Assembly: GCF_014206975.1 (NCBI RefSeq)
Contig: NZ_JACHOU010000014.1
Coordinates: forward strand, 62,001 to 126,000
Origin: Aminobacter aganoensis
GTDB lineage: Bacteria > Pseudomonadota > Alphaproteobacteria > Rhizobiales > Rhizobiaceae
DNA length: 64,000 bases
Reading direction: 5' to 3'
Positions 10,082-40,871 of the stretch are shown here, one piece after another (the stretch's first letter is position 1; the number at the start of each line of letters is the position of its first letter). The notes below the pieces were generated by a model. The model made no database searches, had not been told where the DNA came from, and saw only the letters and a program-made list of their open reading frames with translations. A program made the position numbers and the translations under genes.

Positions 10082-10099
10082 AATTCACTTGTATTCTAT
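10078..10099. terminator. Weak AT-rich hairpin between convergent genes
   Basis: ATAGAAT (10078-10084) and ATTCTAT (10093-10099) pair perfectly over an 8-base loop, spanning the stop codons of the convergent GT4 and GT2 genes. A bidirectional terminator is possible, but the stem is AT-rich and lacks a long T run. Confidence 0.3.
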
Positions 10100-19581: not shown

Positions 19582-20688
19582 TCAATCGCTGAAGGCATTG
19601 CGCAGGTTCCAGCCGAAGCGGGCCGTATCCCGCATGCGCTGGATCGCTGCACGCGGCCAGGAGAAGTCGGCACGGTAGATCTTGTTGGCGTAACCGGCAT
19701 AGGCCCAGGCAAAGGACGGCGCAACGCCGCCGGAGCACGCCTCAAACGGCTGGGCAGCGCGATAGCGGCTCAGGAAATCCGCTGCGAAAATCTTCAGCGT
19801 CTGCGCTTGCGCCTCGCTCACGCCCGCCGGCATGCGCGCGGTCTGCGCGTCCAGCCCATCGATCGTCGCCAGCACGATCAGCGCGACAAAGGCCTCGCCG
19901 AGTTCAGTCGGATGGACGCTGTCGGTAAAAAGCGCCCGAACGACATCGCCCGGTGTCATGTTCTCGAAGCCTTGGCGGGGCGCACTTACGAGATGGTCGA
20001 CCAGTTCGGCCAGGGCCAGGCTCGCCGGGATGAAGCCTATGCCGGAAGCGCTCTCGCCGCCCGATGCAGCGCTCCCGCCGGCAGCTTGCACCGCGCATCG
20101 CCAGACCGGCAAGGCAAGCCGCTCATAGGCGATCCAGTCGCTGGGATCCTCCTTGTCCGAGATATCCAGCCACGGCGCCATGAACCACATCGACCCCGCA
20201 GAACTAGCCTCGAGGAAACGACGCTTGTACTCGGCGAGATAACGCACCGTGCCCTGTCGCATCACCGTGTCGAGCAGGGAGTGCAACTCCGTCACGAGCA
20301 GAAGATCATAGGCACTGTCCCCTACGGACGGTCGGCGGAACTCGACGAGAACATCGACCGAACCGCCACTGCGATCGGTGCCGTCCGCGAAACCCGACCA
20401 TGGTCGCGCGGGATCGGTCCCCATGGAGCGCCGTTCGAGCGACGAACCGCCAATGTTCTGCATGTTCCAGAGAATAGGCCGGCCCGAGGCGGCGGCCATT
20501 TCCGCAAGCTTGTCGAGCATCGGCCGGTCGGTGAGACTGTGGCCGGAAACGAACAGGCTTCGGGGGGCGGCTGTTGTCACGGGAGGCTGCTCAGGCTGGG
20601 ACGCCGACTTCGCTGCATCTGGTGACATGGAACCTGCCAGGACAAGAACACAAAGAAATAGGACAAGCCAACGACGGGTGAAACGCAT
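19582..20688 (-). CDS. Secreted SGNH/GDSL-like hydrolase
   Basis: A 368-residue protein starting at the ATG at 20688, which overlaps the glf stop by one base (TGATG). Residues 1-27 form a signal peptide (RRWLVLFLCVLVLAGSM). FVSGHSLTDRPML places the candidate nucleophile at S51 in a GDSL-like block. TDSVHPTELGEAF supplies D256 and H259 of the SGNH triad. It is probably an esterase or acyltransferase acting on the exported glycan, for example removing or moving acyl groups. Last gene of the NRPS-PPTase-GT-Glf operon, convergent with the GH9-like gene 12 bases away. Confidence 0.75.
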   Translation of the reverse strand: MRFTRRWLVLFLCVLVLAGSMSPDAAKSASQPEQPPVTTAAPRSLFVSGHSLTDRPMLDKLAEMAAASGRPILWNMQNIGGSSLERRSMGTDPARPWSGFADGTDRSGGSVDVLVEFRRPSVGDSAYDLLLVTELHSLLDTVMRQGTVRYLAEYKRRFLEASSAGSMWFMAPWLDISDKEDPSDWIAYERLALPVWRCAVQAAGGSAASGGESASGIGFIPASLALAELVDHLVSAPRQGFENMTPGDVVRALFTDSVHPTELGEAFVALIVLATIDGLDAQTARMPAGVSEAQAQTLKIFAADFLSRYRAAQPFEACSGGVAPSFAWAYAGYANKIYRADFSWPRAAIQRMRDTARFGWNLRNAFSD

Positions 20689-21815
20689 CACGCGGGTGCG
20701 CCCGCATCCTCGGGTCGGCTCTCCCTCGCTGCAGCCATCCGGCGAAAGGTCGCCAGCGCCTGGCCGACGACCTGATCCATGTTGTAGTAGCGATATGTCG
20801 CCAGCCTGCCGACGAACCACACATCCGGCGTCTCGCCCGCAAGCCGCTCATACTGCTTGTACAACTGTTCGTTCTCGGCTTTGGGAATAGGGTAATACGG
20901 GTCGCCCTCCGCCGAAGGGTATTCATAGGTTACCGTGGTCTGCGGATGATCCTGGCCGGTCATGTGCTTGTATTCCGAGATGCGGGTGTAGTCCTGCGTC
21001 ATCGGAAAATTGACCGTGCCGACCTCCTGGAAGCGGCGCGTGTTCAGCGTGACATGCTCGAATTTAAGCGACCGGTAGGGAAGCCTGCCAAAGCGAAAGT
21101 TGAAGTATTCGTCGATTTGCCCGGTATAGATTAGCCGCCGATGCGGAATCTTTGTCCGTACATCCTGATAGTCCGTCTGCAGCATCACCTCGATGTTCGG
21201 GTGATCGAGCATCTTCTCGAAGAGCTTGGTGTAGCCGCCCTTCGGCATGAACTGGAACTCGTCGGTAAAGTAGCGGTCGTCCCGGTTGGTGCGGGTGGGG
21301 ACACGGGCGGTGACAGACCTGTCGAGTTCCGACGGATCCATGCCCCACTGCTTGCGCGTGTATCCGCGGAAGAACTTCTCATAGAGTTCGCGGCCGACCT
21401 TCGAGACGACGACATCCTCCGATGTCTTCACCTCATCCACGGCCTCGGCGCGTTCGGCGAACCAGCCCTCCAACTGTTCCGATGTGAGATCGAGCCCGTA
21501 GAGCCTGTTGACGGTATCCAGATTGATGGGAATCGGCACGCGCAGCCCATCAACCTCCGCCAATACCCTGTGTTCGTAAGGGCGCCACTCGGTAAAGCGC
21601 GACAGGTAGTCGAAGATCTGCTGCGAATTGGTATGAAAAATGTGTGGCCCGTAGCGATGCATCAGCACGCCAGCCTGGTCATGCATGTCGTAGGCATTGC
21701 CACCAATGTGGTCGCGTCGATCGACGACCAAGACCCTTTCGTTGAGCTGGCTCGCTATCCGCTCGGCCAGGACGGAGCCGGCAAATCCGGCGCCCACGAT
21801 CAACCAGTCATACAT
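20688..21815 (-). CDS. glf: UDP-galactopyranose mutase
   Basis: A 375-residue flavoenzyme starting at the ATG at 21815, just after the upstream stop. The FAD fold is WLIVGAGFAGSVLAERIA. RRDHIGGNAYD, YGPHIFHTN, FRGYTRKQWGMDPSEL, NRDDRYFTDEFQFMPKGGY and the C-terminal FVGRLATYRYYNMDQVVGQ are signature blocks of Glf. It interconverts UDP-galactopyranose and UDP-galactofuranose, so the glycan made here very likely contains galactofuranose. It sits in a tight operon with a PPTase and an NRPS, which is an unusual setting. Confidence 0.97.
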   Translation of the reverse strand: MYDWLIVGAGFAGSVLAERIASQLNERVLVVDRRDHIGGNAYDMHDQAGVLMHRYGPHIFHTNSQQIFDYLSRFTEWRPYEHRVLAEVDGLRVPIPINLDTVNRLYGLDLTSEQLEGWFAERAEAVDEVKTSEDVVVSKVGRELYEKFFRGYTRKQWGMDPSELDRSVTARVPTRTNRDDRYFTDEFQFMPKGGYTKLFEKMLDHPNIEVMLQTDYQDVRTKIPHRRLIYTGQIDEYFNFRFGRLPYRSLKFEHVTLNTRRFQEVGTVNFPMTQDYTRISEYKHMTGQDHPQTTVTYEYPSAEGDPYYPIPKAENEQLYKQYERLAGETPDVWFVGRLATYRYYNMDQVVGQALATFRRMAAARESRPEDAGAPA

Positions 21816-21819
21816 CGAG

Positions 21820-23109
21820 CTACCCTGCAGCCGGAGGGAACGTAACGGACAAGCCTGCCGACGCCGGCGCTTTCTCACGCCGGACGGCCGAAGTCTCGCT
21901 TGGGATCAACCTTGCCATGAGCTCAGAGAATTCGCGCAGGAACCACTCTTCGGTCAGGCCATTCAGGAGCGTCGAACGCGCCCTCGATGCGAGGGCCGCC
22001 CTCTCTGCTTCATTCTCCAGATAGAAAGCGCACTTTTCCTCAAGGTCGGAATAGTCCCAGTTGACCGGAATATAGGTGGAGTGCGGAACGAAAATGTTCG
22101 GCTTTGTCGTGATGTGGTCCATGCTGGGCTTCACCAGCAGGCATCCCGAAAGAATCGCTTCGAAATCGCGCCAGCAAAGTTCGCCGTAGCCGATGGGGCT
22201 GACGCATATGCGACTCCGGGTCAGCTCCAGATTGTATTCTTCCTGCGACACGCGCGATCGCGGCGCCAGCACGTTGAACCGGCTGGACAGTCTGGTCACC
22301 GCCTCAATCGCAGAACTGCGCATCGGCGCGATCCAGGCTTCTGGCGGAACATGGGCGCGGCAGAGAATATCGATGGATCGAACTTGCGCCCCAGCTTCGC
22401 CCGGCCGGGCGACAAGCTGCTCGATCTTGTCGTCAAGCGCGATGTTCCAACCTACGTGCAGCTTGCCCAGGCATTCATCGCCGACCGGCACCGACGTGAC
22501 GGTCTGGTCAGGCACATCGTCTCCGGCGAGCCGAGCGACATAGTCGGTCAGGTTGTTGATCTTGGTCTCATTTGCAGTTGCACGATATGCCTTGCGATAC
22601 GCGGAGATGTCAGCGAAGCCATGCTTCTTGACATACAAGTCGACTGCTTCGCAGACATTCGGCCATTGCATGCTCTGATCGTCGTCACCGTCGAAATAGA
22701 CCAGTTTCGTCGTTGTCCGGTCGACCACCTTGCGAAGATGGGCAAGCGCCTTTTCGACATCCCCTGGCTTGGATCTGAACGACAGCTTCAGCCCAACGAC
22801 ATCATAGTCAAGAAAGAAGGCGCCCGGCCTGGCGAGGGCCGCCTCCTGTGAAATCATGCGGAAAACAATTCCCAGCTCCCTGCGCAACGCACGCTGGTGC
22901 CGTATCAAGGGCGCAAACTGCTGCTCGCTTGTATACTCGGCCCCGTCGCTGACCAGCAGCAGCCGAACCACAGGTTTGCGCTTGCTTACCGCACCGACGA
23001 CGGCACGCTCCGCAACTCCGTATCGGTAGGACGCGGCGCTGCGCGCCCAGCGGCGGCGCAGCCCTCGCAACAATCGCTGGATCGCTTGCCGACCTGTCAC
23101 GCGCGTCAT
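21820..23109 (-). CDS. Exostosin-like glycosyltransferase
   Basis: A 429-residue protein with a basic N-terminus (GLRRRWARSAASYRYG). The N-terminal half contains RLLLVSDGAEYTSEQQF and FFLDYDVVGL. TKLVYFDGDDDQSMQW follows, an acidic stretch typical of these proteins. The C-terminal part (SRICVSPIGYGELCWRDFEAILSG...LVKPSMDH) matches the exostosin/GT-B donor domain. It overlaps the PPTase stop by 4 bases (23106-23109) and ends 4 bases before the glf start. It is a good candidate for a galactofuranosyltransferase, inferred only from adjacency to glf. Confidence 0.75.
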   Translation of the reverse strand: MTRVTGRQAIQRLLRGLRRRWARSAASYRYGVAERAVVGAVSKRKPVVRLLLVSDGAEYTSEQQFAPLIRHQRALRRELGIVFRMISQEAALARPGAFFLDYDVVGLKLSFRSKPGDVEKALAHLRKVVDRTTTKLVYFDGDDDQSMQWPNVCEAVDLYVKKHGFADISAYRKAYRATANETKINNLTDYVARLAGDDVPDQTVTSVPVGDECLGKLHVGWNIALDDKIEQLVARPGEAGAQVRSIDILCRAHVPPEAWIAPMRSSAIEAVTRLSSRFNVLAPRSRVSQEEYNLELTRSRICVSPIGYGELCWRDFEAILSGCLLVKPSMDHITTKPNIFVPHSTYIPVNWDYSDLEEKCAFYLENEAERAALASRARSTLLNGLTEEWFLREFSELMARLIPSETSAVRREKAPASAGLSVTFPPAAG

Positions 23110-23804
23110 TGCATTCTCCCATGTCCGCCGGTCGAAGAGTTGGCCATGCGCCTTGACAGGATCATCGCTGTCGAGATGAAGCCCGATGCAATGCGAATGC
23201 GGCCTTCCAGTATCTGACCAGCCAGGAAGGGCGCCACGTTGACCTCAAGACGCGCTTCGAAGCGGCCCCTCGCCACGTCCGGCAGGATGGTCACTGCTTG
23301 GAAGTCGATGAGCGTTTTCGACAGCGGGTACTGGCTTTTGTAGAAGGACTCCTTGGCACTGAAGATCGCCTTGGCGAGCATCAGGCGCTGCCCCGCCGGC
23401 TGCCGTCCGAGCCAGCGAAGCTCGGCGTCGGTGCAGATCACATCCAGCAAATCGTCGTCCAGCGGTATCGCCGGTTCGACATCTATGCCGATCGAGCTGC
23501 ACTCCTGGCTTTCGCGCGCCACGGCGGCGACGCACCAGTCGGAACAATGGCTGATGCTTCCGACGATGCCGGTCGGCCAGACCGGCGCTCGATCGGCCGC
23601 TGCGGGGATCGCGGCCTGCGCTACGCCCAGCGACGCCATGGCCTGCCGCGCCAGCGCGCGGCCTGCCGCAAATTCGCGGCGACGGGGTTCCGTGGCGCGC
23701 GACACATAGGATCGCTCGACGGGGTACATCACCGCGGCAAGCGACCGGGGATCACCCTGCGCTGTCGCCACGTCCGCATGAAAGAGCCCGGCAAGCAGGC
23801 CCAT
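23106..23804 (-). CDS. 4'-phosphopantetheinyl transferase (Sfp/EntD type)
   Basis: A 232-residue enzyme. IGIDVE (D108, E110) and FSAKESFYKSQYP (E152, K156) form the magnesium and CoA sites of Sfp-type transferases, with ISHCSDW in the family position. It would convert apo carrier domains of the adjacent NRPS and PKS to the holo form. The ATG overlaps the NRPS stop by one base (TGATG), and its own stop overlaps the next start as ATGA, so expression is coupled both ways. Confidence 0.93.
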   Translation of the reverse strand: MGLLAGLFHADVATAQGDPRSLAAVMYPVERSYVSRATEPRRREFAAGRALARQAMASLGVAQAAIPAAADRAPVWPTGIVGSISHCSDWCVAAVARESQECSSIGIDVEPAIPLDDDLLDVICTDAELRWLGRQPAGQRLMLAKAIFSAKESFYKSQYPLSKTLIDFQAVTILPDVARGRFEARLEVNVAPFLAGQILEGRIRIASGFISTAMILSRRMANSSTGGHGRMQ

Positions 23805-26800
23805 CAATTTTCTCGCATCCGTTGCATCGCGGCGCGGCGGTCGCCGAGCGCGGCACGGCGCATGGCGGCGCGGTCTGCAACCTGGCTTAGCCGTTCATCG
23901 GACTTGCCGCGGTCGGCAAGATGCCCGGACAGTGCCGCCACCGTCGGGAAGCGGAACAGGTCGGTGATGGCGATATCGGGTGCGACCGATGCCTTCAGCT
24001 CCCGGTGCGCCTGCACCGCCAGCAGCGAGTGGCCCCCGAGCGCAAAGAAGCTGTCGTTGAGCCCGACACGCTCGACGCCGAGGATACGGCGGAAAGTCTC
24101 GGCGATCTCGCGCTGCACGTTGTCGACCGGTGCGACGTAGATCTCGGCTTCAGCTTCGCGCCTGGCCTCCGGTTTGGGCAGCGCCTTGCGGTCGACCTTG
24201 GCATTTGGTGTCAACGGGAAGGCATTGAGCACCACGAAATGTGCCGGGACCATGTACTCCGGCAGTGACTTGGCCAGATGGGTACGCAAGGCACTTTCGT
24301 CGAGCTTGCCGTCCCTGAGCCGCAGATAGGCGACGATGCGCACGTCGGCGGCCCGATCTTCGCGGGCCATCACGACGGTCTCGGCGATGCCGGGGAACTC
24401 AGCGATCCGCGATTCGATTTCGCCGAGTTCGATGCGATAGCCGCGCACCTTGACCTGATGGTCAGTGCGGCCAAGGAACTGCAGCACGCCGTCGGTCGTA
24501 TAGCGCACGAGATCGCCGGTGCGATACATCCTGCCGTCGGCGAAGGGATTTGCCACGAAACGCTCGCGGGTCAGGTCGTCACGGCCGAAATAACCGCGCG
24601 CCACGCCCTCGCCGCCGATGACGAGTTCACCGGCCATGCCGGGCGCGACTGGACGAAGCGAAGCATCGAGCACGTAGAGTTGCGTGTTGGCGATCGGCTT
24701 GCCAAGCGGCACGACGCCCTCGCCGATGTCGGCGGTCATCGTCGAGGACCAGATGGTCGTCTCCGTCGGGCCATACATGTTTTCGACCGGCGCCGACGTC
24801 ACCTTGCGCAGTTCGGACAGCAAGGACGCCGGCAATGCCTCTCCGCCGACGAGCAAATGGCGGACCTGCCCGAGGGCCTGCCGGTCCTCGTCATTGACCA
24901 GGAACATGCGCGCCATCGAAGGCGTACATTGCAGATGGGTCACGCCGTGGGCGGCGATATCGGCTGCGAGCGCGCTCTGCGGCATCGACTCGCTCGTATC
25001 GCTCTCGCGCGACCGCGCGACCACCTCGGCGAGCGGCTTCAACCGCTCCAGAACGATGTCGCTGGGGATGCCATAATCGATCAGGCAAGCAACCTCGTCG
25101 ACGCCGATGGCCGCGATCTGGTCGACGCGGTCGAGCGCATCATCTACGGTGCCGAACAGGCCGCTGTCTTCGAAGTAACGCAGGAAGGCAAATTCCAGGA
25201 TTGCGTCGAGTTCATCCGGCTGCAGCGACTGCAGGTCGATGTCCATCGGCTGGACCACGCCCTGCGGCTTCTTGAATGCCGGGAAGGCCCAGGCATATTG
25301 CTTGATCAGTGCCGCGGCGCTGCGCAGATAGTCTTTCATCGGACCGCGGGCGCGCTCCCGCACCTCCTCGCGATCCTCGCCGAGCAGCGTGTGCAGCATC
25401 AGCGTGACCTTGTGCGCGCTCGGATCGTGGCCCGCCTCGGCCAGCGCCTCGCGGTAGACGCGGATCTTGCCGGCCAGTTCGTCGATCGACTGGCCGAGCA
25501 GATGGGTCAGCACATTCGCGCCCAGTCGACCGGCTTCGCGATAGGTATCGGTGTTGCCGGCGGTGGTGATCCAGACCGGCAGTTCCTTTTGCACCGGACG
25601 CGGCTGCGTGACGACAGCCAGCTTGCCCGTGCCGAAGTCGAACTCGACCTTGTCGCCGCGCCAGAGACGGCGGACGGTCTCGATGTCGCGCAGCATGGCC
25701 GCCTTGTTGTGCGGCGGCGCATTCTCCGGCCGCAGCACGAAATCCTCAGGCATCCAGCCGGAGGCGAAGGCGAGACCGACGCGACCATTGCTGATATTGT
25801 CGAGGATGGCCCACTCTTCCGCGACGCGCGCGGGATGATGCAGCGGCAGGACGCATGAACCGGCGCGGATCGACAGGTTCTTCGTCACGGCAGCGACGGC
25901 AGCTCCCGTCACCGCCGGGTTCGGATAGGGACCACCGAAGGCATGGAAATGCCGCTCCGGTGTCCACAGTGCCTGGAAGCCATGCTCGTCGGCAAACTTC
26001 GCACCTTCCAGCAGCAGCCGGTATTTCGCCGGCCCTGCCCCGTCGTCATTGCCCCAGTAGAACAGGCCGAAATCCATCGGCGCCTTGCCGTTGGCGCGGC
26101 GGCGCGGCGCTGCCTCGCTCTTGTGCTCATGCACATCGCTGGCATGAATGACCACCTTGAAGCCACGCGCCAGCGTCCAGAACAACTCCAGCACGGAGAT
26201 GTCGAAGGACAAGCTCGTGACGGCGAGCCAAACAGGCTGCCCGGCTTCGTCAATGGTGATGCGGTCATCCATGCCGACGAAGAAATTCGCGACATTGCGA
26301 TGCTCAACCATCACGCCCTTCGGCCGCCCTGTCGAACCCGACGTGTAGATCATGTAGGCGAGATTGGCCGCCGTGACCCCGCTGCGGGGGCGCTCGGCAT
26401 TGCCGGGTGTCGCAAGAATGTCCTCGATGTTTAAACGCCGGGCACCGTCCGCGGCCAGCACGCCATCGAGCGCGCGTTCGCTCAGCACCACCGGCGCGCC
26501 ACTGTCTTCGACCATCAGCGCAAGGCGCTCGGCCGGAAACATCGGGTCGAGCGGCACATAAGCGCCGCCTGCCTTCTGGATCGCCAGTGCGCCGATCACC
26601 AGCTCCGGCGAACGCGAGACATGGAGGCCGACCAGCGTGTCAGGCTTCACGCCGAGCTCGATCAGCCGGTGTGCGACCCGATTGGCCTTTTCGTCGAGTT
26701 CGCGATAGCTCAGCGACCGCTCGCGGAAGGCGACTGCGATCGCGTCCGGTGTCAGTTCGGCCTGACGTTCGACCAGCGTATGCACGCAAGCCGTGCGATC

Positions 26801-28435
26801 ATGGTCGCGTGCAGTCTCGTTCCAGCCGTAGAGCACGCGCTGGCGCTCGTCATCGGACATCAGCGGCAGGTCTGAAACCCCCTTGTCGCCGGCCGCAAAT
26901 GCAGCGGCGAATATGCCCAGCCGGGACAGCATGTCGGCAAGGTCGCGCGCCCCAATCCGCGCTTGGTCCGCCAATACCGCGGTCTCGTCCGCACCGAGCA
27001 CGAATGTCAGGGCCGACCCTTCGACAAGGCTGGCCTGGGACGGTGAAACGGCTTCCACCAGCCCGACGGTCAGCCGCGGAACAACAAGCCCGGGAACGCG
27101 CTCCGCGAGGTCGGCCACATAGATGCCGCGCTCGCGCTGCTTGCCCAGGGCTTCGTTTGTCCGCGCCGCGAAAGCCTGGGCCGTTTCACCGTCAAGAGCC
27201 TCGACACGGAACGGAACCGACTTGGCGAAATACCCGGGGAACTGGCTGTCCAGCACTGCGAAGGCATCCGTCGCATAGGCGATGTCGAGCGAATCCTGGC
27301 CGGAGAATCGAGCCAGGAAGGCGGCAATCGCGGCCGCGCGCGAGTCCGCCGGAACCGCCATTTGCAGCGGCTGCGCGAGTATCTGCACCTGACTGTCCGG
27401 CGTCCATGCCTTGACGTCGGGCAGATCGACATCGCGCACAGCGGCAAGCGCCTTGCGATGACGCGCTTCATGGCGGGCGGCCCGCGCAACTGCCTCGTCC
27501 AGCGCCTGTCCTTCTGCGTCGGCCATCGGCGGCAGGCGCATTCCCTGGCTGAGGCAGGAACTCAGCGTCTTGCCGGCATTCCGTCCAAGACCGATTCCCT
27601 GAACCAGCACATGCCGGTCCGCCGCAGCAATGACGGCGCCCTCATCCGAAACGGAGATCACCGTGCCTGCGGCCTGGCCGTCGGCGTGCTCCATAGTCTC
27701 GAACCTGGTAACGACGAAAAGGCCGCCATCCGTGCTCACCTTGGTGCGGGCCAGCGGGTTGGCGTAGCCCGAGCCAAAATCGAGCCCGCGCGCCGCGCGC
27801 GACAATGTCTGCGCATCGCGGTCGAAACGCAGCGTTCCGGCGGCCGCCGGGCGGCGGTCCCTGGCGTAGTAGGTACGCTGCGACAGATCCTGCGGCTGCG
27901 GCGCGAGCGTCCGCTCATCGATGGCGGTCAGCATGTCCTCGAATGTCGAAATGCCCGCTTCGAAGCATTTCGTATTGAGGGTCAGCGCCGTCTCGTCTTG
28001 ACCGATCTCGACCATGCGCTGGGCATAGATGCCGCCCTCGTCGACGTGCGCCGTCAGCGCATGCCAGGTGACGCCGTGACGGGTCTCGCCCTCCATGATC
28101 GCCCAGGCCGGGGCATTGAGGCCGGCATAGCGGGGCAACGGACCGTCATGGAAATTCGCCGCACCCTGTCGCGCATTGCGCCACAGCGCATCCGGGATGA
28201 TGCGCAGGTTGGCCGCGCTGAAAAGCCAATCATAGGAGACCGACGCAAGCCGGGGCTCGACGTCGCCGTCGAATGCGCAGACCGGGAGGCCGAGGCCTTC
28301 CGCCCAGTTCCGGATCGATGTGTTGTCCGTCACGATCATCGCCACTGCATGGCCATGGGCCCGCACGATCTCGGCGCATTGCACAAGAAGCGACTCGTCC
28401 CCGATCAGAACGCATTCCAATTGCCCTGATGGCAT
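23804..28435 (-). CDS. NRPS: formyltransferase / half-C / A with inserted FMN monooxygenase / T
   Basis: A 1543-residue single module. Residues 1-300 are a formyltransferase (ANFHDGPLPRYAG with N94 and H96; HVDEGG with D132). Residues about 355-520 match only the C-terminal half of a condensation domain (FSGQ...FPGYFAKSVPFRVE), with no HHxxxDG. The adenylation domain runs 545-775 and 1150-1420: YTSGSTGRPKG, FDISVLELFW, NMYGPTETT, YRTGDLV and NAKVDRKAL. A luciferase-like monooxygenase of the MupA/Atu3671 type is inserted at about 786-1135. The carrier domain carries S1470 (LGGHSL). My reading of the specificity residues is D-I-L-Q-L-G-M-I-W, one change from the glycine code. The layout recalls the formylating F-A-T starter module of linear gramicidin. 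It diverges from the PKS gene. Confidence 0.93.
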   Translation of the reverse strand: MPSGQLECVLIGDESLLVQCAEIVRAHGHAVAMIVTDNTSIRNWAEGLGLPVCAFDGDVEPRLASVSYDWLFSAANLRIIPDALWRNARQGAANFHDGPLPRYAGLNAPAWAIMEGETRHGVTWHALTAHVDEGGIYAQRMVEIGQDETALTLNTKCFEAGISTFEDMLTAIDERTLAPQPQDLSQRTYYARDRRPAAAGTLRFDRDAQTLSRAARGLDFGSGYANPLARTKVSTDGGLFVVTRFETMEHADGQAAGTVISVSDEGAVIAAADRHVLVQGIGLGRNAGKTLSSCLSQGMRLPPMADAEGQALDEAVARAARHEARHRKALAAVRDVDLPDVKAWTPDSQVQILAQPLQMAVPADSRAAAIAAFLARFSGQDSLDIAYATDAFAVLDSQFPGYFAKSVPFRVEALDGETAQAFAARTNEALGKQRERGIYVADLAERVPGLVVPRLTVGLVEAVSPSQASLVEGSALTFVLGADETAVLADQARIGARDLADMLSRLGIFAAAFAAGDKGVSDLPLMSDDERQRVLYGWNETARDHDRTACVHTLVERQAELTPDAIAVAFRERSLSYRELDEKANRVAHRLIELGVKPDTLVGLHVSRSPELVIGALAIQKAGGAYVPLDPMFPAERLALMVEDSGAPVVLSERALDGVLAADGARRLNIEDILATPGNAERPRSGVTAANLAYMIYTSGSTGRPKGVMVEHRNVANFFVGMDDRITIDEAGQPVWLAVTSLSFDISVLELFWTLARGFKVVIHASDVHEHKSEAAPRRRANGKAPMDFGLFYWGNDDGAGPAKYRLLLEGAKFADEHGFQALWTPERHFHAFGGPYPNPAVTGAAVAAVTKNLSIRAGSCVLPLHHPARVAEEWAILDNISNGRVGLAFASGWMPEDFVLRPENAPPHNKAAMLRDIETVRRLWRGDKVEFDFGTGKLAVVTQPRPVQKELPVWITTAGNTDTYREAGRLGANVLTHLLGQSIDELAGKIRVYREALAEAGHDPSAHKVTLMLHTLLGEDREEVRERARGPMKDYLRSAAALIKQYAWAFPAFKKPQGVVQPMDIDLQSLQPDELDAILEFAFLRYFEDSGLFGTVDDALDRVDQIAAIGVDEVACLIDYGIPSDIVLERLKPLAEVVARSRESDTSESMPQSALAADIAAHGVTHLQCTPSMARMFLVNDEDRQALGQVRHLLVGGEALPASLLSELRKVTSAPVENMYGPTETTIWSSTMTADIGEGVVPLGKPIANTQLYVLDASLRPVAPGMAGELVIGGEGVARGYFGRDDLTRERFVANPFADGRMYRTGDLVRYTTDGVLQFLGRTDHQVKVRGYRIELGEIESRIAEFPGIAETVVMAREDRAADVRIVAYLRLRDGKLDESALRTHLAKSLPEYMVPAHFVVLNAFPLTPNAKVDRKALPKPEARREAEAEIYVAPVDNVQREIAETFRRILGVERVGLNDSFFALGGHSLLAVQAHRELKASVAPDIAITDLFRFPTVAALSGHLADRGKSDERLSQVADRAAMRRAALGDRRAAMQRMREN

Positions 28436-28742
28436 GTGCCCGACCCCATGAACTGCGATTGCTGCCGTATCTATATACGAATTGATCTAAACAAGAATGA
28501 GAATACCCTCCTTGTTTTCCATCAGGACTTCAATGTTTGGTTAAGGCTGTAGCGCGACAGTGGCATCAATATCGTCGCAGGGGCTGCGGGTCTGACCTGA
28601 CAGCGGAAAGCTTAACGCCGTTTTCATTCTACGTGTTTCTTAGAATGAGCCTATCGGCAGGACGATTGGATATCGGCTACTGTGCTACCCGTATCCAGGC
28701 TTGGCTTGCCAACGGAATAATAGGCTCTCGGGGCATTACGCG
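28436..28742. promoter_or_regulatory. Bidirectional NRPS/PKS promoter region
   Basis: These 307 bases separate the divergent NRPS and PKS genes and contain no credible gene. They are AT-richer than their surroundings. AGAATGAG occurs twice in the same orientation (28494-28501 and 28642-28649). AAACAAG/CTTGTTT form a 7-base inverted repeat (28489-28495, 28511-28517), and a second dyad lies at 28624-28648. GGTTAAGGC at 28539-28547 recurs upstream of the TolC-like gene. Shared control of both megasynthases is likely. Confidence 0.5.
28624..28648. promoter_or_regulatory. Dyad TCATTCTA-N9-TAGAATGA
   Basis: Perfect 8-base arms (28624-28631 and 28641-28648) with a 9-base spacer, 95 bases before the PKS start. 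The inner TTCTTAGAA (28637-28645) is also palindromic. The form resembles metalloregulator operators, but I cannot assign Fur, Irr or RirA from sequence alone. Confidence 0.4.
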
Positions 28743-31700
28743 ATGTATGAAACCGATCAGGTGTCTCCGAACGACATCGCCATTGTCGGCATGGCGCTTC
28801 GCGTGCCGGGCGCCCGCAATGTCCGAGAATTCTGGGAAAACCTGCGCGGCGGCGTGGAGTCGATCCGCGACCTGACGGAAGACGAACTGCTGGCTGCCGG
28901 CGAGTCGGCCGCGCGCATGCATCTGCCCAACTATGTGCGCCGCACCTCCGAACTTCCCGGCATGGAGATGTTCGATGCCGACTTCTTCGGGCTCAGCCCC
29001 AAGGAAGCGGCGATCATGGATCCGCAGCACCGGCACTTCCTCGAATGTGCCTGGGAGGCGATGGAAGACGCCGGGCGCACGCCCGATTCCAGCGCCGGTC
29101 CCGTCGGCGTCTTCGCCGGCTGCGGTATGGGCTCCTATTTCTACTTCAACGTCTGCAGCAATCGCCAACTTGTCGACCAGGTCGGCATGTTCCTGCTGCG
29201 TCACACGGGCAACGACAAGGACTTCCTCGCCACGCGCGCCTCGTTCGCCTTCGACCTGCGTGGACCGAGCGTCAATATCCAGACGGCGTGCTCGACCTCG
29301 CTCGTCGCAATCCACACCGCTTGCCAGAGCCTGCTTGCCGGCGAATGCGAAATGGCGCTGGCCGGCGGCGTCACGATCGAATTGCCGCATCGCCGCGGCT
29401 ACCTGTTCCAGGACGGCGAAATTCTCTCGACCGACGGCCACTGCCGCGCGTTCGACCACCGCGCCGACGGCACCGTCTTCGGCAGCGGCGCTGGTGTGGT
29501 CGTCCTGCGCCGCCTGTCCGACGCGATTGCCGATGGCGACATCATCCACGCCGTCATCAAGGCGACGGCCGTCAACAACGACGGCAACAGCAAGGCCGGC
29601 TATCTGGCGCCAAGCGTCACCGGCCAGGCCGAGGCCATCATCGAGGCGCAAGGCCTTGCTGGTGTTTCCGCCGACGAGATCCAGTATGTCGAGTGCCACG
29701 GGACCGGCACCTATCTTGGCGACCCGATCGAGATCGAGGCGCTGACCCAGGCCTTCCGGCAAAGCACCGCCCGCACCGGCTTTTGCCGCGTCGGCTCGGT
29801 GAAGTCGAACATCGGCCACCTCGACACCGCTGCCGGCGTTGTCAGCCTGATCAAGACCACCTTGGCGCTCAAGCACGGCGAGATGCCGCCGACCTTGAAT
29901 TTCGAGAAGCCCAATCCGGCAATCGACTTCGCGCGCAGTCCGTTCGTCGTCAACGACAAGCTGACCCCGTGGCCGGCAGTTTCCGGACCGCGGCGCGCGG
30001 CCGTGAACTCGCTGGGCGTCGGTGGAACGAATGCCCATGCCATCCTCGAGGCCGCACCCAAGTCGATAGCCGCCGCAGCCAGGGGCGACAGCGAGCCGCA
30101 GCTCTTCCTTTTTGCCACCAAGAACCGCAAGGCGCTGGACCGCGCCATGGACCAGATCGGCGAGGAAATCACGCGACGGCCGGCGCTGCCGCTCACCGAT
30201 GTCTCGCACACCTTGTTTACCGGCCGAAAGCACTTCGAGCACCGCCGCGCCGTCGCAGCACGCGGACGCGACGAGGCCGTAGCGCTTCTCTCCGGTTCCG
30301 AACCGAGGCGCGTCCACACCCACAGCACGATCGAGGCTGCCAACGCTGTGTTCCTGTTCCCGGGCGGCGGCGCACAGCATGTCGGCATGACGCGCAGCCT
30401 GTACGCCGAGGACGCTGGTTTCCGTGCGACAGTCGATGAGGGGTTGAACTATCTCACCCCGGAAGCCGCAACCGAGATCCGCCGCGTCTGGCTCGCGGCC
30501 GATACTGACCCATCCCGGGCGGCGAGCGACTTCTTGCGGCCTTCGGTGCAGCTTCCCGCCATCCTGATCGTCGAAATCGCCACTGCCCGTATGTGGATGC
30601 GCTGGGGCGTCAAGCCGTCGGCGCTGATCGGTCACTCCATGGGCGAAAATGCCGCCGCCTGCATCGCAGGCGTCATGAGCTTCCGCGATGTCGTCAATCT
30701 CGTGCGCCTGCGCGGCGAACTGTTCGACACGGTCGAGGCTGGCGGCATGCTGTCCGTGCCGCTGTCGCCCGAAGCACTTTCCGAGCACATGAACCCTGCG
30801 CTCGACCTCGCCTCGGTGAACGCGCCGGAACTCTGCGTCGTTTCGGGCCGCAACGAAGACCTTGAGGCGCTGGGCCTCAGGCTGGCCGAACGCGGCATCG
30901 ACGCATCACGCATCGCAATCGACATCGCCGCCCATTCGCAGATGCTGGATCCGATCCTCGGGCGCTTCGAAGCGTTCCTGCACAGCATCGACCTGCGCGC
31001 GCCGTCAATCCCGATCGTCTCCAACCTCACCGGCGAGTGGCTCAGCGACGCGCAGGCCCGCGACCCGCTCTACTGGGTCCGCCATCTCCGCTCGACGGTC
31101 CATTTCGCCAAGGGTCTCGCCGCGGTCTCGGCGCAGCCGGGGCGGGTCTACATCGAAGTCGGACCGAGCCGCGCCTTGTCGTCGCTGGTCAAGCTTCAGC
31201 CGGGCGTCGAGGCAAACCAGGTCATCAACAGCCTGCCGCATCCCGACGAGGCGACCGACGACCGGGTCCACTTCCTCGCCGCCCTGGGCCGTGCCTGGGC
31301 GACCGGTCTCGACGTGAGCATTGCCAAGCTGTGGGAAGGCAGCGGTGCGCGGCGCGTGTCGCTGCCAACCTATCCGTTCCAGCACCAGCGCTACTTCATC
31401 GAGCGCAGCGTCGCGGCGGTGACAAATGAGAACGAGCAGGACTTCATCGGCAAGCTGCCCGACATGACGGACTGGGGTTTCCAGCCCAGCTGGAAACAGG
31501 CCTTGGCCGACGTGACGATCGACGCCGATGCCCGGCCGGAATCCTGGCTGGTCTTCATGGACGATACCGGTCTTGGTACGGCGCTGGTCGAACGGCTTCG
31601 CGCCAAGGATCATCGCGTTGCGACCGTCAAGGCCGGCGACAGCTTCGTCAGGCACGACAGTGGCAACTATACACTGTGCGCCGAACAGGAACGGCCGGGC

Positions 31701-34700
31701 TATGATGCGCTGTTCTCAGGTCTCGCTGGCGACGGCGGCATCCCCGAGCGGATCGTGCACCTCTGGCTCACGACGGGCGAGGAAACATTCCGCCCGGGTT
31801 CGAACTTCTTCAACCGCAACCAGGAACGCGGCTTCCAGAGCCTGTTCTTCATCGCCCAGGCGCTTGGCGACATCGAGGGCTTCGAGCCGCAGATCACCGT
31901 GGTGACCAACGGCATGCAGCGGGTCGGTGCCGAACCCCTGCCCTATCCGGAAAAGGCAACCATCGTCGGTCCAGCCCTGGTCATGCCGAAAGAAATGGCG
32001 GGGGCCACGGTCCGCCTCGTCGATCTTGAACATTCTGCGCCGTCTCGGCCAGGCACGAGCGGCTTCATGCGAACGCGGAAGCCTGCAGGCGACCTGGATA
32101 CCGCGCTGCAGGGCCAGCAACTCGACCAGTTGTGGGACGACATCTTCGCTGCGCCCGCTTCTGAAACGGTTGCCCACCGCAAGGGCAAGCGCTGGATACG
32201 CAGCTACAAGAAACTGGCGCTCGCCGAAGCCAATGCCGACAGTGCCTTGCTACGCAAAGGCGGCGTCTATCTGATCACCGGTGGTCTCGGCGATCTCGCT
32301 CAGGTCGTCGCCGGCGAACTCGCATCGCGTTTCCAGGCAAAGCTGGTCCTGGCCGGGCGGCTCGAATTGCCGCCTCGGGAGAAATGGGCGACCCTGACCC
32401 TCCCGCTCTCGCGCAACGACCGGACGCGCCGCGCCATCGAAGCGATCCAGGCGCTGGAGGCCAAGGGCGCGGAAGTGCTCTACGTCACCGCCGACGTGGG
32501 CAACCTCGAAGACATGACTGCAGTGGCCGACCAGGCACGCGCCGCATTCGGCGGCATCAATGGCGTGTTCCACGCGGCCGGTCTCGTCGACGACAACCTG
32601 ATCCAGTTGAAGTCTCTGGAAGAGATGGAGACTGTGCTGTCGCCCAAGCTGCGCGGCACCGTGGTTCTCGACGAGGTCTTCCGCGACAGGCCTCTCGATC
32701 TTTTCGTCCTGTTCTCGTCGACCAGTACCGACACGGCTCCCGCCGGGCAGGTCGACTACGTCGCCGCCAATGCCTACCTCAACGCCTATGCCGATAGCCG
32801 TTTTGGCGACGGCTCGCGCAAGACCGTAGCACTCCACTGGGGCGTCTGGAACGCTGTCGGACTGGCGGCGCGCGCCACCGGCCAGGCCGGGCAAGCCGAC
32901 GCGCCAAGCCCGCATCGCGGCAAAGCTCAGGGACCATTCTTCACCGACTGGGTGGAAGACGCGCAAGGCGATGTGTGGCTCGAGGCGCGCATTTCACCGC
33001 GCAGCCACTGGATGCTCGACGAGCACCGGCTGGTCTCCGGCCAGGCCATCCTTCCGGGTACCGGCACGATAGAAATCATTGCCCAGGCTATGAAGGAGTA
33101 TGGCATCGACCAGGGCAGCGATATTGCCGATCTCTTCTTCCTGCGCCCGCTCGAAGTGGATGACGGGCGCGACAAGATCCTGCGCGTACGGCTTGCCAAC
33201 GATGGTGATCGTCAGCACGCGCTCGTCACCGCAGCGGACGCCGAACTCATGTCGGAAGGCTTCACCGTTCATGCCGAAGCGAGCCTGCGCAAGCGTCTCG
33301 CCAAGCCGCATGCCGCTGCCGATGTCGCCGCCGCCTCGGCGCGGCTGATCGCCGGGCAACGCGCCGAGGGTAAGGCTGCCCTTCCCTCGGTACAGGAAGA
33401 TCACATCCGCTTCGGTCCACGCTGGAAGGTGTTGCGCTCGCTGGCCCGCGGGGATCGGGAGGCCCTTGCCGAACTCAGGCTCGACGAGGCCTATCGCGGC
33501 GACATCGCCGGCTTCATAGCCCATCCGGCGCTGCTCGACATCGCTACCGGCTTTGCGCTCGACCTCGCCCCCGGCCATGCAACATCCCACGCCCTGTGGG
33601 CGCCGATGTCCTATGGCAGCATCGCGTTCTACATGAGGCTGCCCGAGGCGATCGTCAGCTGGGCAAGGCTGAGCGAGGCATCGGATCTCGGTGACGGCTT
33701 CGCGACCTTCGACATCACCATCGCCACACCAGACGGCAACATCGTCGCTGAGATCGAACGTTTCGTCATGAAGCGGCTGGACGACGACCTTGCCCTGGCT
33801 TCGGCCCAGCGCGTTGACCGCGCACGCAAGCCTGCGGGCGACGACAAGGAGCCATTGTCGCCGGCCGCGTTGCAGCTTGCCGCACAGGTGAGCCAAGGCA
33901 TCCTGCCGGCCGAGGGTTTCGACGCCATGCTGCGCGCGCTCGCCACCGGCCAGCCGCAACCGATCGTCAGCTCGATGGACCTCGGCGCGCTACGCAAGCG
34001 CGCGGCCCAACCGCGCGCCGAAGTGCAGGGTTCGGGCGAGGTCTTCGAACGCCCCGATCTCGACAACGACTATGTCGCGCCCCGGGATGAGATCGAGCGC
34101 ACGCTCGCCGGTTTCTGGAGCGAATTGCTCGGCGTCGAGAAGATCGGCGTCCACGACAGCTTCTTCGACATTGGCGGCCATTCGCTGATTGCGGTGCGGC
34201 TATTCCGCATGATCAGGAAGCAATTCGCACTCGACCTGCCGATCTCGGTGCTGTTTGAGGCGCCGACCATTGCCGAATGCGCGGCGCTGATCGGAAAGCA
34301 GGTCACGCCTATGGATGCTGGCACCACAGGTTCCGCCACCTCCGACAACGACACAGCCAGGATCGAAAAGGCCACGCACCTGGTCACGATGAGCGCGGGT
34401 CGGGCGAGCGGAGCTACACCGTTCTTCCTCTGCGCCGGCATGTTCGGCAACGTGCTCAATCTGCGCCAGCTGGCCATGCAGCTCGGCACCGACCGGCCGG
34501 TCTATGGACTCCAGGCACGCGGTCTCTATGGCGACCAGGAACCTCACGACAACTTCGTCGAGATGGCGCGCGACAATCTCAGGGAAGTTCGCGCCATCCA
34601 GCCGCACGGGCCCTATCTGCTGGGCGGCTTCTCCGGCGGTGGCCTCGTCGCCTACGAGATGGCGCTGCAGCTACGCGACGAAGGCGAAGAGGTCGCGCAA

Positions 34701-35213
34701 TTGATCCTGCTGGACACGCCCTTGCCAACACAGCCGCCACTGTCGGTGCTTGACCGGTTCTCGATGAAGCTTCAGGATCTACGCCGGGAGCGGCACAATT
34801 TCATTGCCAACTGGATCGACAATCGCCGCCGCTGGAAAGAGAAAGTCGCGGGCCGCGCCGATGCCGAGGACGCCGAACAGGCCTCCGAGCAGTTCCACAA
34901 CCTGGCGATCGAAAACGCCTTCCGCGCCGCATTGCCACGCTACGAGCTCAAGCCCTATGCGGGCAGCGTGCTGTTGCTTCGACCGAAGCTCAACGTCATC
35001 TATCGCCTGAGCGGTGGCCGCATGCTGCAGGACGGCCGCAACGTCGCGATGGAAGACAATGGCTGGACGCCCTTTGCCGCCGACCTGACCGTGCAGGAGG
35101 TACCCGGCGACCACGACAGCATGGTGCTCGAGCCCTTCGTGCGCATTCTCGCCGACCGGATCCGGAAGCGGCTCAAGGAACCGGCGCGCGCCTACGGCAT
35201 GGCGGCGGAATAG
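28743..35213 (+). CDS. Type I polyketide synthase, KS-AT-KR-DH-ACP-TE
   Basis: A 2156-residue single-module PKS. I use the ATG at 28743; an in-frame TTG at 28701 would add 14 residues. KS: C183 in TACSTSLVAIHTAC, H319 in CHGTGT, H359 in NIGHLD. AT: S632 in GHSMGE; the specificity loop reads IAAHS, not clearly malonyl or methylmalonyl. KR: ITGGLGD near 1178 and Y1339 in DYVAANAYL. DH: H1428 in DEHRLVSGQAILPGTG and D1599 in HPALLDIA. ACP: S1814 in IGGHSL. TE: S1964 in GGFSGGG and H2124 in GDHDS. KR lies before DH, the reverse of the common order. It should accept the NRPS-bound unit, extend once, reduce, dehydrate and release. Its stop abuts that of the TolC-like gene. Confidence 0.95.
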   Translation: MYETDQVSPNDIAIVGMALRVPGARNVREFWENLRGGVESIRDLTEDELLAAGESAARMHLPNYVRRTSELPGMEMFDADFFGLSPKEAAIMDPQHRHFLECAWEAMEDAGRTPDSSAGPVGVFAGCGMGSYFYFNVCSNRQLVDQVGMFLLRHTGNDKDFLATRASFAFDLRGPSVNIQTACSTSLVAIHTACQSLLAGECEMALAGGVTIELPHRRGYLFQDGEILSTDGHCRAFDHRADGTVFGSGAGVVVLRRLSDAIADGDIIHAVIKATAVNNDGNSKAGYLAPSVTGQAEAIIEAQGLAGVSADEIQYVECHGTGTYLGDPIEIEALTQAFRQSTARTGFCRVGSVKSNIGHLDTAAGVVSLIKTTLALKHGEMPPTLNFEKPNPAIDFARSPFVVNDKLTPWPAVSGPRRAAVNSLGVGGTNAHAILEAAPKSIAAAARGDSEPQLFLFATKNRKALDRAMDQIGEEITRRPALPLTDVSHTLFTGRKHFEHRRAVAARGRDEAVALLSGSEPRRVHTHSTIEAANAVFLFPGGGAQHVGMTRSLYAEDAGFRATVDEGLNYLTPEAATEIRRVWLAADTDPSRAASDFLRPSVQLPAILIVEIATARMWMRWGVKPSALIGHSMGENAAACIAGVMSFRDVVNLVRLRGELFDTVEAGGMLSVPLSPEALSEHMNPALDLASVNAPELCVVSGRNEDLEALGLRLAERGIDASRIAIDIAAHSQMLDPILGRFEAFLHSIDLRAPSIPIVSNLTGEWLSDAQARDPLYWVRHLRSTVHFAKGLAAVSAQPGRVYIEVGPSRALSSLVKLQPGVEANQVINSLPHPDEATDDRVHFLAALGRAWATGLDVSIAKLWEGSGARRVSLPTYPFQHQRYFIERSVAAVTNENEQDFIGKLPDMTDWGFQPSWKQALADVTIDADARPESWLVFMDDTGLGTALVERLRAKDHRVATVKAGDSFVRHDSGNYTLCAEQERPGYDALFSGLAGDGGIPERIVHLWLTTGEETFRPGSNFFNRNQERGFQSLFFIAQALGDIEGFEPQITVVTNGMQRVGAEPLPYPEKATIVGPALVMPKEMAGATVRLVDLEHSAPSRPGTSGFMRTRKPAGDLDTALQGQQLDQLWDDIFAAPASETVAHRKGKRWIRSYKKLALAEANADSALLRKGGVYLITGGLGDLAQVVAGELASRFQAKLVLAGRLELPPREKWATLTLPLSRNDRTRRAIEAIQALEAKGAEVLYVTADVGNLEDMTAVADQARAAFGGINGVFHAAGLVDDNLIQLKSLEEMETVLSPKLRGTVVLDEVFRDRPLDLFVLFSSTSTDTAPAGQVDYVAANAYLNAYADSRFGDGSRKTVALHWGVWNAVGLAARATGQAGQADAPSPHRGKAQGPFFTDWVEDAQGDVWLEARISPRSHWMLDEHRLVSGQAILPGTGTIEIIAQAMKEYGIDQGSDIADLFFLRPLEVDDGRDKILRVRLANDGDRQHALVTAADAELMSEGFTVHAEASLRKRLAKPHAAADVAAASARLIAGQRAEGKAALPSVQEDHIRFGPRWKVLRSLARGDREALAELRLDEAYRGDIAGFIAHPALLDIATGFALDLAPGHATSHALWAPMSYGSIAFYMRLPEAIVSWARLSEASDLGDGFATFDITIATPDGNIVAEIERFVMKRLDDDLALASAQRVDRARKPAGDDKEPLSPAALQLAAQVSQGILPAEGFDAMLRALATGQPQPIVSSMDLGALRKRAAQPRAEVQGSGEVFERPDLDNDYVAPRDEIERTLAGFWSELLGVEKIGVHDSFFDIGGHSLIAVRLFRMIRKQFALDLPISVLFEAPTIAECAALIGKQVTPMDAGTTGSATSDNDTARIEKATHLVTMSAGRASGATPFFLCAGMFGNVLNLRQLAMQLGTDRPVYGLQARGLYGDQEPHDNFVEMARDNLREVRAIQPHGPYLLGGFSGGGLVAYEMALQLRDEGEEVAQLILLDTPLPTQPPLSVLDRFSMKLQDLRRERHNFIANWIDNRRRWKEKVAGRADAEDAEQASEQFHNLAIENAFRAALPRYELKPYAGSVLLLRPKLNVIYRLSGGRMLQDGRNVAMEDNGWTPFAADLTVQEVPGDHDSMVLEPFVRILADRIRKRLKEPARAYGMAAE

Positions 35214-36554
35214 CTATTCGGCGTCCGCCGTCTGCTGGACGCCCGGCACGCCGAACAGTTCGCCGACCAGCCCCGTTTCCGCCGCGATCGTGTATTCGGC
35301 GGCGATCAGGTCGTAGCGCGCATTGTTGAGGTTGATTTCCGAGCTGGCGAGGTCGGCAATCGCCCTGATCTCGTCGAAAGTCGAGCGCTCGCCGACCTTG
35401 CGTTCGGCCCGCACGCCCTCGAGGGCCGACGCGGCATTGCGCCGTTCCGCCTGGGCGAGGGTCTGCATGCGCTTTGCCAGAACGCGGCGGTCGAAGGCGG
35501 ACCGGATCGCGGCGGTTACACCGATTCGCGCGGCATCGGCTTCGAACACCGCCGCGCGGTTTTCATCGTTGCGCTGCCTGATGCCGGCGCTGACGCGGCC
35601 ACCCGTGTAGATCGGCATGGAGAACCGGACTTCGCCACGACCCGCGACATGGCGGTCGACGCCGGGAAGCGTATCCTCGCCACCCCGCACGCTCAGACCG
35701 GCTGACACCGTCGGCAGCAGGTCGCCCTTCGCCTGGCTGACCCGGGCCTTCGCCGCATCGGCGCGGGCATCGCGCTCCTTGACGCGCGGATTGTTGTTGA
35801 CGGCCAGTTCGATCAGATCCTGCTCTTCGCTCGGCAGCTGGAGCCTGGAGACTTCCGGCAGCTTCGTCTCGGGCGCGATCCCGAGCCGGAGCGCGGTGCG
35901 GCTTGCCTGGGCAATCAGCAGCCTGGCGCGCTCACGCTCGACCGACAGGCGCGACAGCTGGCGCCCAACGTCATCGACGTCGACACGGCTCGCCGCGCCA
36001 GCCTTCAATTCAGTTTCGATACCGCGTTTGAGGCTGCCTAGAATGGCTGCCTGCTTGCCCAGTATCTCCACGGCGCCCTTCTGGCGGTGGACCTCGATCA
36101 GCGCCAGTGCCAGTTCATAGGCGGCCGAGACGCGCCGATCATTGGCGACCTCGCCGCTGGCACGGTAGTCCGCCTTGGCCGCGGCCACCGCCGATTGTCC
36201 CCTGCCGCCCTGGTAGAGCGGGATGTCGACCGTCAGCGCGTAGGAATAGGCATTGCCGGTCGTGCGGGAGTCGAATTCGTCGCCATCGCCGGCGGCAACT
36301 CCGGCGCTCGCCTCGATGCCAGCGTTTGGCAGCAAGGTCGACCGCGCGCGTGCAATCTCCTCGCCGGCTGCATCGCGCCGCGCATCGGCGGCCAATATTT
36401 CCGGATGGGTATTGATCGACGCCAAATTGCTGACGGTACCGGTCACGACCTTGGCGGGCTCGGGAGCAGACGCCTGGCGAGCAGCGCCGCTGGCGCAGCC
36501 GGCAAGGGCAACGCAGGCACTCAAAACCGCTACAGCCGTTCTGTAGTAGGACAT
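35214..36554 (-). CDS. TolC-family outer-membrane efflux lipoprotein
   Basis: A 446-residue protein with a lipobox (LAGC, Cys near residue 20), so it is probably a lipoprotein of the OMF class. Two related halves each contain long helices and beta-barrel strands (YALTVDIPLYQGGRGQSAV; EVRFSMPIYTGGRVSAGI), as in TolC/OprM. No periplasmic adaptor or inner-membrane pump is encoded nearby, so it must pair with one elsewhere. It converges on the PKS with no gap (stop codons back to back in TAGCTA). It could export the PKS product or serve type I secretion of matrix proteins. Confidence 0.9.
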   Translation of the reverse strand: MSYYRTAVAVLSACVALAGCASGAARQASAPEPAKVVTGTVSNLASINTHPEILAADARRDAAGEEIARARSTLLPNAGIEASAGVAAGDGDEFDSRTTGNAYSYALTVDIPLYQGGRGQSAVAAAKADYRASGEVANDRRVSAAYELALALIEVHRQKGAVEILGKQAAILGSLKRGIETELKAGAASRVDVDDVGRQLSRLSVERERARLLIAQASRTALRLGIAPETKLPEVSRLQLPSEEQDLIELAVNNNPRVKERDARADAAKARVSQAKGDLLPTVSAGLSVRGGEDTLPGVDRHVAGRGEVRFSMPIYTGGRVSAGIRQRNDENRAAVFEADAARIGVTAAIRSAFDRRVLAKRMQTLAQAERRNAASALEGVRAERKVGERSTFDEIRAIADLASSEINLNNARYDLIAAEYTIAAETGLVGELFGVPGVQQTADAE

Positions 36555-39205: not shown

Positions 39206-39988
39206 TCAGTCGACGGCGTGCTGGAGCACACTCAAGCCCCCGTCGACGACGAGGCTGGCGGCATTCATGAACGGGCATTCGTCGGAGATCATGAACACCG
39301 CGGCCTTGGCAATCTCGGTCGTGGAGGCGATGCGCTTGCCCGGATGCAGCGCCATCGTCTCGGCGCGCGCCTTTGCCGGATCGGGAAAGCTGTTCCAGTA
39401 GTCGATGTTCTTCTGCGTCTCGACATAACCGGGCGCCAGCGCATTCACGCGCACGCCGGCGGCCGCATATTCGAGCGCCAGCGACTTGGTCATTCCGAGC
39501 AAGGCGTGCTTGGCGAGGGGATAGGGAAAGGTGTGCGGAATGACGGTGAAGGAGTGGGTCGAGGCGATGTTGAGAATCGCTCCGCCGCCGCCGGCGATCA
39601 TGCCCGGCAACGCCGCCTTGCAGCAGTTCCATGCACCCTTGAGATTGACGTCGAAGCAGCGCTGCCATTCGTCGTCGGTGGTTTCCAGCGGTGTGTTGAA
39701 GACGTTGATGCCGGCATTGTTGATCAGCGCATTGACCGGACCAATGGCGTTGCCGGCCGCGGCCATCGCGGCGGCGATCGCCTGGGCGTCAGCAATGTCT
39801 GCCTCGGCATGGGCCAACATGCCCTCGCCTGCCCCGAGCCGCGCCATGGCCTCGCGCAACAGGGTGCCATCTCGGTCGACCACGAAAAGTCGCGCGCCTT
39901 CTTTCAGGCACTCCTCGGCGATGGCAAGGCCGATGCCTTGTGCCGCGCCTGTGAGGAAGATGCGCTTACCAGCAAGACGTTGGCTCAT
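39206..39988 (-). CDS. SDR-family sugar dehydrogenase
   Basis: A 260-residue short-chain dehydrogenase. LTGAAQGIG is the nucleotide loop, ALINNAGIN the NNAG motif, NIAS the catalytic serine strand, and YPLAK the YxxxK pair. It lies in one leftward operon with an aldose epimerase (4-base overlap) and an AraFGH-like importer. A role as an aldose 1-dehydrogenase (galactose, arabinose or fucose) producing the lactone is the best inference, since a galactonate dehydratase is encoded nearby. The exact sugar is not visible. Confidence 0.88.
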   Translation of the reverse strand: MSQRLAGKRIFLTGAAQGIGLAIAEECLKEGARLFVVDRDGTLLREAMARLGAGEGMLAHAEADIADAQAIAAAMAAAGNAIGPVNALINNAGINVFNTPLETTDDEWQRCFDVNLKGAWNCCKAALPGMIAGGGGAILNIASTHSFTVIPHTFPYPLAKHALLGMTKSLALEYAAAGVRVNALAPGYVETQKNIDYWNSFPDPAKARAETMALHPGKRIASTTEIAKAAVFMISDECPFMNAASLVVDGGLSVLQHAVD

Positions 39989-40863: not shown

Positions 40864-40871
40864 CGGGCAAC

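Follow-up and report, generated by a model that had tools for sequence, protein, structure and literature searches.

The usual reading of assembly-line genes is that they make free secondary metabolites. Linkage of NRPS or PKS products to surface glycans is known from the mycobacterial glycopeptidolipids and the PKS-acylated trehalose lipids. These differ from the system considered here in belonging to another phylum, in having lipid-sized products and in having no Wzx/Wzy/Wza locus. In the Dlt D-alanylation of teichoic acids, an SGNH-like protein works with adenylation and carrier proteins to form esters on a surface polymer. That system has no PKS or formyltransferase, both of which are present here, and no DltB-type MBOAT gene was noticed among the genes identified in the window locus. 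PKSs of the RkpA/WcbR type include an ER and lack a TE, whereas the PKS of our window (the whole 64,000-nucleotide stretch of Aminobacter aganoensis DNA that was analysed, taken from contig C14 of a genome of 5.76 Mb) gave no ER match in Pfam and ends in a TE. Like the window PKS, RkpA/WcbR is a type I PKS located among capsular polysaccharide genes (PMC3908369); the passages on it there describe no NRPS partner, unlike the window PKS, which has one.

The loading module CongA of conglobatin consists of a formyltransferase, an A domain predicted for glycine and a PCP, and the loading of formyl-glycine was proposed for it, formylation itself having been demonstrated for linear gramicidin (PMC4504003). 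The window locus is similar in that a formyltransferase, a glycine-type A domain and a PCP feed a PKS ending in a TE; it differs from CongA in the LLM inside the A domain, the single PKS module and the polysaccharide-locus setting. In myxothiazol-type systems, C-alpha is hydroxylated by monooxygenase domains that interrupt glycine A domains (PMC11342130), and the window NRPS was likened to the myxothiazol/melithiazol type by domain placement, a monooxygenase being inserted in a glycine-type A domain in both. In the latter, however, the amine is lost at the chain end, whereas the LLM of the window NRPS lies in a loading module after a formyltransferase. The orphan genes Inhi_1972 and Inhi_1974 of the roseobacter Phaeobacter inhibens are a PKS and an NRPS one locus tag apart (PMC4062626); this spacing would fit a PKS-GT2-NRPS order, their identity with the clade described below being a guess. 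A literature search covering open papers found no description of polysaccharide loci that carry NRPS-PKS genes in this manner.

Gene layout and domains of the assembly line

The gene structure, domains and conserved residues of the locus were computed, and the features are collected in Table 1. The earlier note on this DNA had described a leftward, overlapping series of NRPS, PPTase, glycosyltransferase (GT), glf and SGNH genes, from which the PKS diverges with 307 bases between the NRPS and PKS starts, and both descriptions were confirmed by the ORFs and translations. TGATG is common to the NRPS stop and the PPTase start (ATG at 23804), the PPTase stop and the GT start overlap as ATGA (23106-23109), a 4-base gap (21816-21819) separates the GT from the glf ATG at 21815, and TGATG is again common to the glf stop and the SGNH start (20690-20686). 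To the left of the assembly-line genes, outside the range 19582-35213, sits a complete polysaccharide export locus, with the flippase, polymerase/ligase-like, export and chain-length proteins of a Wzx/Wzy-type set together at 10-17 kb. An initiating sugar-phosphate transferase is absent from the window locus, the two PF02397 matches of the genome being found on contigs C4 and C6; by Pfam positions, the window's contig is without WecG-type and sugar-phosphate transferases, while GTA is present.

Table 1. Features of the assembly-line locus and the neighbouring export locus, in window positions. Start codons were picked from gene overlaps, and longer ORFs are possible for PPTase, glf, SGNH and PKS.
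Feature	Positions	Strand	Basis or remark
GT4-family glycosyltransferase	8813..10081	+	
GT2-family transferase (GTA)	10085..11068	-	homologs in many NRPS loci of the clade
Wzx-type flippase	11065..12411	-	Polysacc_synt_3
Wzz/BcsQ-like chain-length protein	12454..13941	-	
Wza-type polysaccharide export protein	13975..15252	-	Poly_export
Wzy/O-antigen-ligase-like protein	15378..16757	-	Wzy_C 31.4 bits, just below cut-off 31.7
GH9 glycoside hydrolase	16831..19569	+	
SGNH-hydrolase-like protein	19582..20688	-	N-terminal signal-like stretch (by eye)
Apparently swapped GT+glf module	20556..23292		no DNA similarity to collinear MSH1 locus
glf, UDP-galactopyranose mutase	20688..21815	-	TIGR00031
Glycosyltransferase (GT), GT-B-like	21820..23109	-	Glyco_trans_1_2
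Sfp-type 4'-phosphopantetheinyl transferase (PPTase)	23106..23804	-	4PPT_N + ACPS
NRPS, 1543 aa: formyltransferase, A domain interrupted by LLM, PCP	23804..28435	-	ORF + Pfam/TIGR04020
Gap of 307 bases between divergent NRPS/PKS starts	28436..28742		
Type I PKS, KS-AT-KR-DH-ACP-TE	28743..35213	+	ORF + Pfam
TolC-like outer-membrane efflux protein adjoining PKS	35214..36554	-	kept in MSH1, G006, G072

The NRPS matched the Pfam families Formyl_trans_N, AMP-binding (two stretches), Bac_luciferase and PP-binding, with no match to a condensation domain in its first 540 residues, and the LLM inside its A domain matched TIGR04020 (MupA/Atu3671-type) with 483.7 bits (cut-off 244.45). The Pfam matches of the PKS were KS, AT, KR, DH, PP-binding and Thioesterase. 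In the NRPS clade described below, the ten A-domain positions, read by motif, were DILQ-x-GMIWK in 32/32 rows with a complete A domain, one residue away from DILQLGLIWK, which we take to be the glycine code. The N/H/D residues of the formyltransferase were kept in 33/33 rows, and the two features of a formyl-glycine loading module, these residues and a glycine-type code, are found together. KS and AT residues were kept in 28 of the 29 clade PKS rows, the exception being the split RhBG6, and the KR, ACP and TE motifs occurred in 29/29; variation in DH and in parts of the KR motif leaves the reduction state of the product unsure. In Rhizobium sp. BG6, the PKS coding sequence is divided between two reading frames (L067 8285-14688).

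The SGNH-like protein gave no match in a Pfam search; GHSL and DxxH motifs were invariant in 18 aligned homologs, whose profile weakly matched the structure 4i8i_A (E=1.7e-4), and weak matches to DUF4886 were found for 7 of the 18 (best E 0.0033). The "exostosin-like" label of the window GT draws on weak RXYLT1_C matches in 6/10 members of its family and on exostosin chains among the generic GT-B fold matches of the GT model (mean pLDDT 76.3), with TM-scores <0.5 to the query. As a prediction, this model is useful for a probable GT-B class and not for the donor.

The NRPS clade and its glycan neighbourhoods

An alignment of the formyltransferase region from 20 NRPSs was used as query, and matches, clade and sisters mixed throughout, were obtained in 10/385 genomes of the class sample, 21/297 of the window's family, 86/248 of the family of G808 and 15/398 of the phylum sample, all 15 in the window's class. 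The family of G808 (f74) includes named Ruegeria, Paracoccus and Parasedimentitalea rows and on that ground was read as Rhodobacteraceae. In a tree of 43 NRPSs, 32 rows formed a single clade (SH-aLRT 100) separate from 11 sister rows, the clade and sister labels having been fixed before the tree from identity and neighbourhood. The trees were made without G054 and G946 (short or different); also outside the tree were G442, G246, G353 and G264, which have an LLM above the TIGR04020 cut-off without this NRPS type, and the A1 hits G784, G713, G728, G864 and G259 of the formyltransferase-region searches.

Both the single clade and its tie to glycan genes are computed results. The neighbourhoods were searched by BLAST with a library of six annotated glycan loci and the window, those loci matching themselves. 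In the 33 clade loci (the 32 and the truncated G946), which are related and give counts that are not independent, the following were found within 20 kb: glycosyltransferase (32 loci), PKS (31), PPTase (28), Wzx (23), sugar-phosphate transferase (23), WecG-type transferase (21), SGNH relative (18) and glf (1). The 11 sister loci all had the PKS, and none had any of the glycan gene classes, G341, G345 and G452 having been read only ~7 kb on each side and G205 having short or weak glycan-gene matches below the count filters. By Pfam, 21 of 23 clade genomes had PF03808, PF02397 or PF13440 (WecG-type transferase, sugar-phosphate transferase, flippase) no more than 20 kb from the NRPS, where random placement would give 1.72; the corresponding tail probability (1.9e-22) overstates the evidence because the genomes are related. 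In the two clade genomes with no nearby match, G320 and G946, the NRPS is on contigs of 18 and 24.5 kb. For the sisters, the values were 2/9 within 20 kb (0.70 expected) and 4/9 within 30 kb (0.99 expected).

A later sample took in 20 kb around 40 of the 86 Rhodobacteraceae-type matches, chosen by contig position and not at random. In the resulting tree of 83 rows the clade comprised 71 rows (SH-aLRT 100), including 39 of the 40 later rows, the remaining one falling with the sisters. A GT2 gene was present in the 20 kb read in 38/39 later clade members, of which 35 had another glycan gene as well, and the usual order was PKS-GT2-NRPS-PPTase, the GT2 gene lying mostly between PKS and NRPS. The clade member L182 had only an SGNH relative nearby, and in the sister-type L175 the 20 kb read showed no glycan genes. 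Among named Hyphomicrobiales and Rhodobacterales, surface-glycan genes surround this type of NRPS and its PKS, in most cases together with the PPTase, and part of the glycan may be shared, since the GTA, GT2b/GT2core and WecG transferase families recur in both orders. Judged from gene neighbourhoods, conservation of the tie between the NRPS clade and surface-glycan genes is well supported. The suggestion in the earlier note that the assembly line serves a surface glycan is well supported as a genomic association (21/23 and 38/39) and is a proposal as chemistry; its specific galactofuranose component is not supported.

Galactofuranose genes at the locus

The window glf scored 424.6 bits against TIGR00031 (cut-off 303.75) and was the sole match in its genome. 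The closest named relative of the locus was found on plasmid pUSP1 of Aminobacter sp. MSH1, whose NRPS is 92% identical. The two loci share one gene order from the arabinose-transport genes through the methyltransferase, with 73-99% protein identity, except in the PPTase-SGNH interval, where GT and glf in the window stand against one unrelated glycosyltransferase in MSH1. The G+C content of glf and GT is 0.59-0.60, compared with 0.64-0.66 in their neighbours. The congener G006 has the MSH1 arrangement (92-100% identity to MSH1 gene by gene), and both retain the NRPS, PPTase, PKS, SGNH and export genes, without glf at the PPTase-SGNH position. Separation of glf/GT from NRPS/PPTase in relatives, which the earlier note had named as evidence against its reading, is thus observed for glf and its GT in these two. 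A specific tie of the line to galactofuranose was likewise not supported, glf lying within 20 kb of the NRPS in 1 of the 33 clade loci, and galactofuranose as a fixed partner was rejected as a rule on this count and on the unrelated GT of MSH1 and G006. The arabinose-type ABC transporter, aldose epimerase and SDR genes (window 39206-44403) are 83-99% identical to those of MSH1 and broadly more conserved than the glycan genes (73-88%).

A search of 151 genomes for the window GT matched 2, the source genome and, weakly, G135; nine congeners gave no match. Relatives were located in 10 other loci of the searched genome contigs, with glf adjoining in 7, in 3 of them directly in tandem. These 7 loci are without this NRPS or PKS, the only NRPS-like match in the 10 being 23% over 274 residues in L034. 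Because its relatives adjoin glf in 7/10 loci, the window GT is suggested to be a galactofuranosyltransferase, a putative donor assignment. GT and glf together look like a strain-variable sugar module, locally swapped into a conserved chassis, and on this gene content the galactofuranose part is apparently incidental to this strain.

Genes for UbiA, GtrA, an FAD-oxidoreductase and an SDR were observed near the NRPS in Ruegeria sp. SCSIO 43209 (L047 25500-29414), and the first three also in G730 (L129). The set resembles decaprenylphosphoryl-arabinofuranose synthesis and may be another furanose module.

Proposed pathway and alternative readings

For the A-domain substrate, the reaction of the LLM, the extension number, and the identity and attachment of the product, we infer the following. 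The PPTase would activate both carrier domains, the A domain would load glycine onto the PCP, the N-terminal domain would formylate the bound glycine and the LLM may oxidise the glycyl alpha-carbon. The PKS would add probably one malonyl unit, processed by KR and perhaps DH, and the TE would release or transfer a short acyl unit, e.g., 4-formamido-3-hydroxybutyryl or an oxidised or dehydrated form. Partner transferases or the SGNH protein would place this unit on a sugar or repeat unit, and the glycan would exit via the Wzx/Wzy/Wza route, with GT and glf as an exchangeable sugar module. A short formamido (hydroxy)acyl unit would be the simplest product because of the A-domain code, the formyltransferase residues and the parallels with CongA and the myxothiazol type.

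That the NRPS-PKS line is dedicated to a surface polysaccharide or glycolipid is the reading towards which we lean, with modest confidence. Against it stand the sister pairs, which have the same A-domain code and lie mostly away from glycan genes, the locus L182 with its lone SGNH relative and the 4/9 sisters with a glycan gene within 30 kb; the TE and the neighbouring TolC-like gene would suit a free product too. Such a small molecule (signal, metallophore or antibiotic) would be co-regulated with the exopolysaccharide and chemically separate from it, their proximity reflecting a shared attachment or biofilm programme, and free products can be presumed for those sister pairs that have no glycan neighbours. 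Nevertheless, we consider a free molecule rather unlikely, since the glycan tie is a property of the whole clade and survives the exchange of neighbouring sugar genes, and since a GT2 gene stands between PKS and NRPS in most Rhodobacteraceae-type loci. The product could instead be an aglycone or primer glycosylated by the dedicated transferases that accompany the line, giving a lipopeptide-like surface compound and not a decorated polysaccharide, with the mycobacterial glycopeptidolipids as a parallel. This is improbable in our view, as the loci also contain Wzx, Wzy-like, Wza and chain-length genes, which indicate a polymer, and no lipid-loading domain was seen in the Pfam search of NRPS and PKS. 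A functional tie to galactofuranose, for which the overlapping genes of the window's genome speak, is refuted as a general rule and could hold in this strain alone; given the single glf among 33 loci, the unrelated GT in its place in MSH1 and G006, and the GT family that adjoins glf elsewhere without this NRPS or PKS (7/10), it is judged very improbable.

Dedication of the line to a surface glycan leads to a wider proposal, offered tentatively and with somewhat more doubt than belief: Alphaproteobacteria, among them roughly one in three genomes sampled from one roseobacter-type family, may carry an unrecognised class of surface glycan, in which the repeat unit bears an NRPS-PKS-made, N-formylglycine-derived acyl group and the line travels with partly conserved glycosyltransferases, sugar modules such as that for galactofuranose being exchanged around it. 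If a tie of the clade to polysaccharide loci truly holds across both orders, many orphan clusters, which are common in marine genomes of the roseobacter type, would make coat chemistry in place of free metabolites, and formamido-acyl substituents are predicted on environmental glycans.

Tandem sister NRPS-PKS pairs with the same formyltransferase-A-LLM-PCP layout were observed at L049 15004-28743, L050, L054, L070 15004-25798, L132-L133 and L138-L142, mostly away from glycan genes and with a PKS ORF of ~3080 aa in several; their product would reveal the output of the assembly line without a glycan. In L051 and L053 (G341 and G452), LLM-containing NRPSs that could not be aligned to the formyltransferase residues adjoin a PKS, with glycan genes ~10-50 kb away. 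Additionally, exosortase XrtD genes (VPLPA-CTERM system) were found near the NRPS in Ruegeria conchae (L046 146-1798) and in the sister-type Aliiroseovarius (L049 33410-34392).
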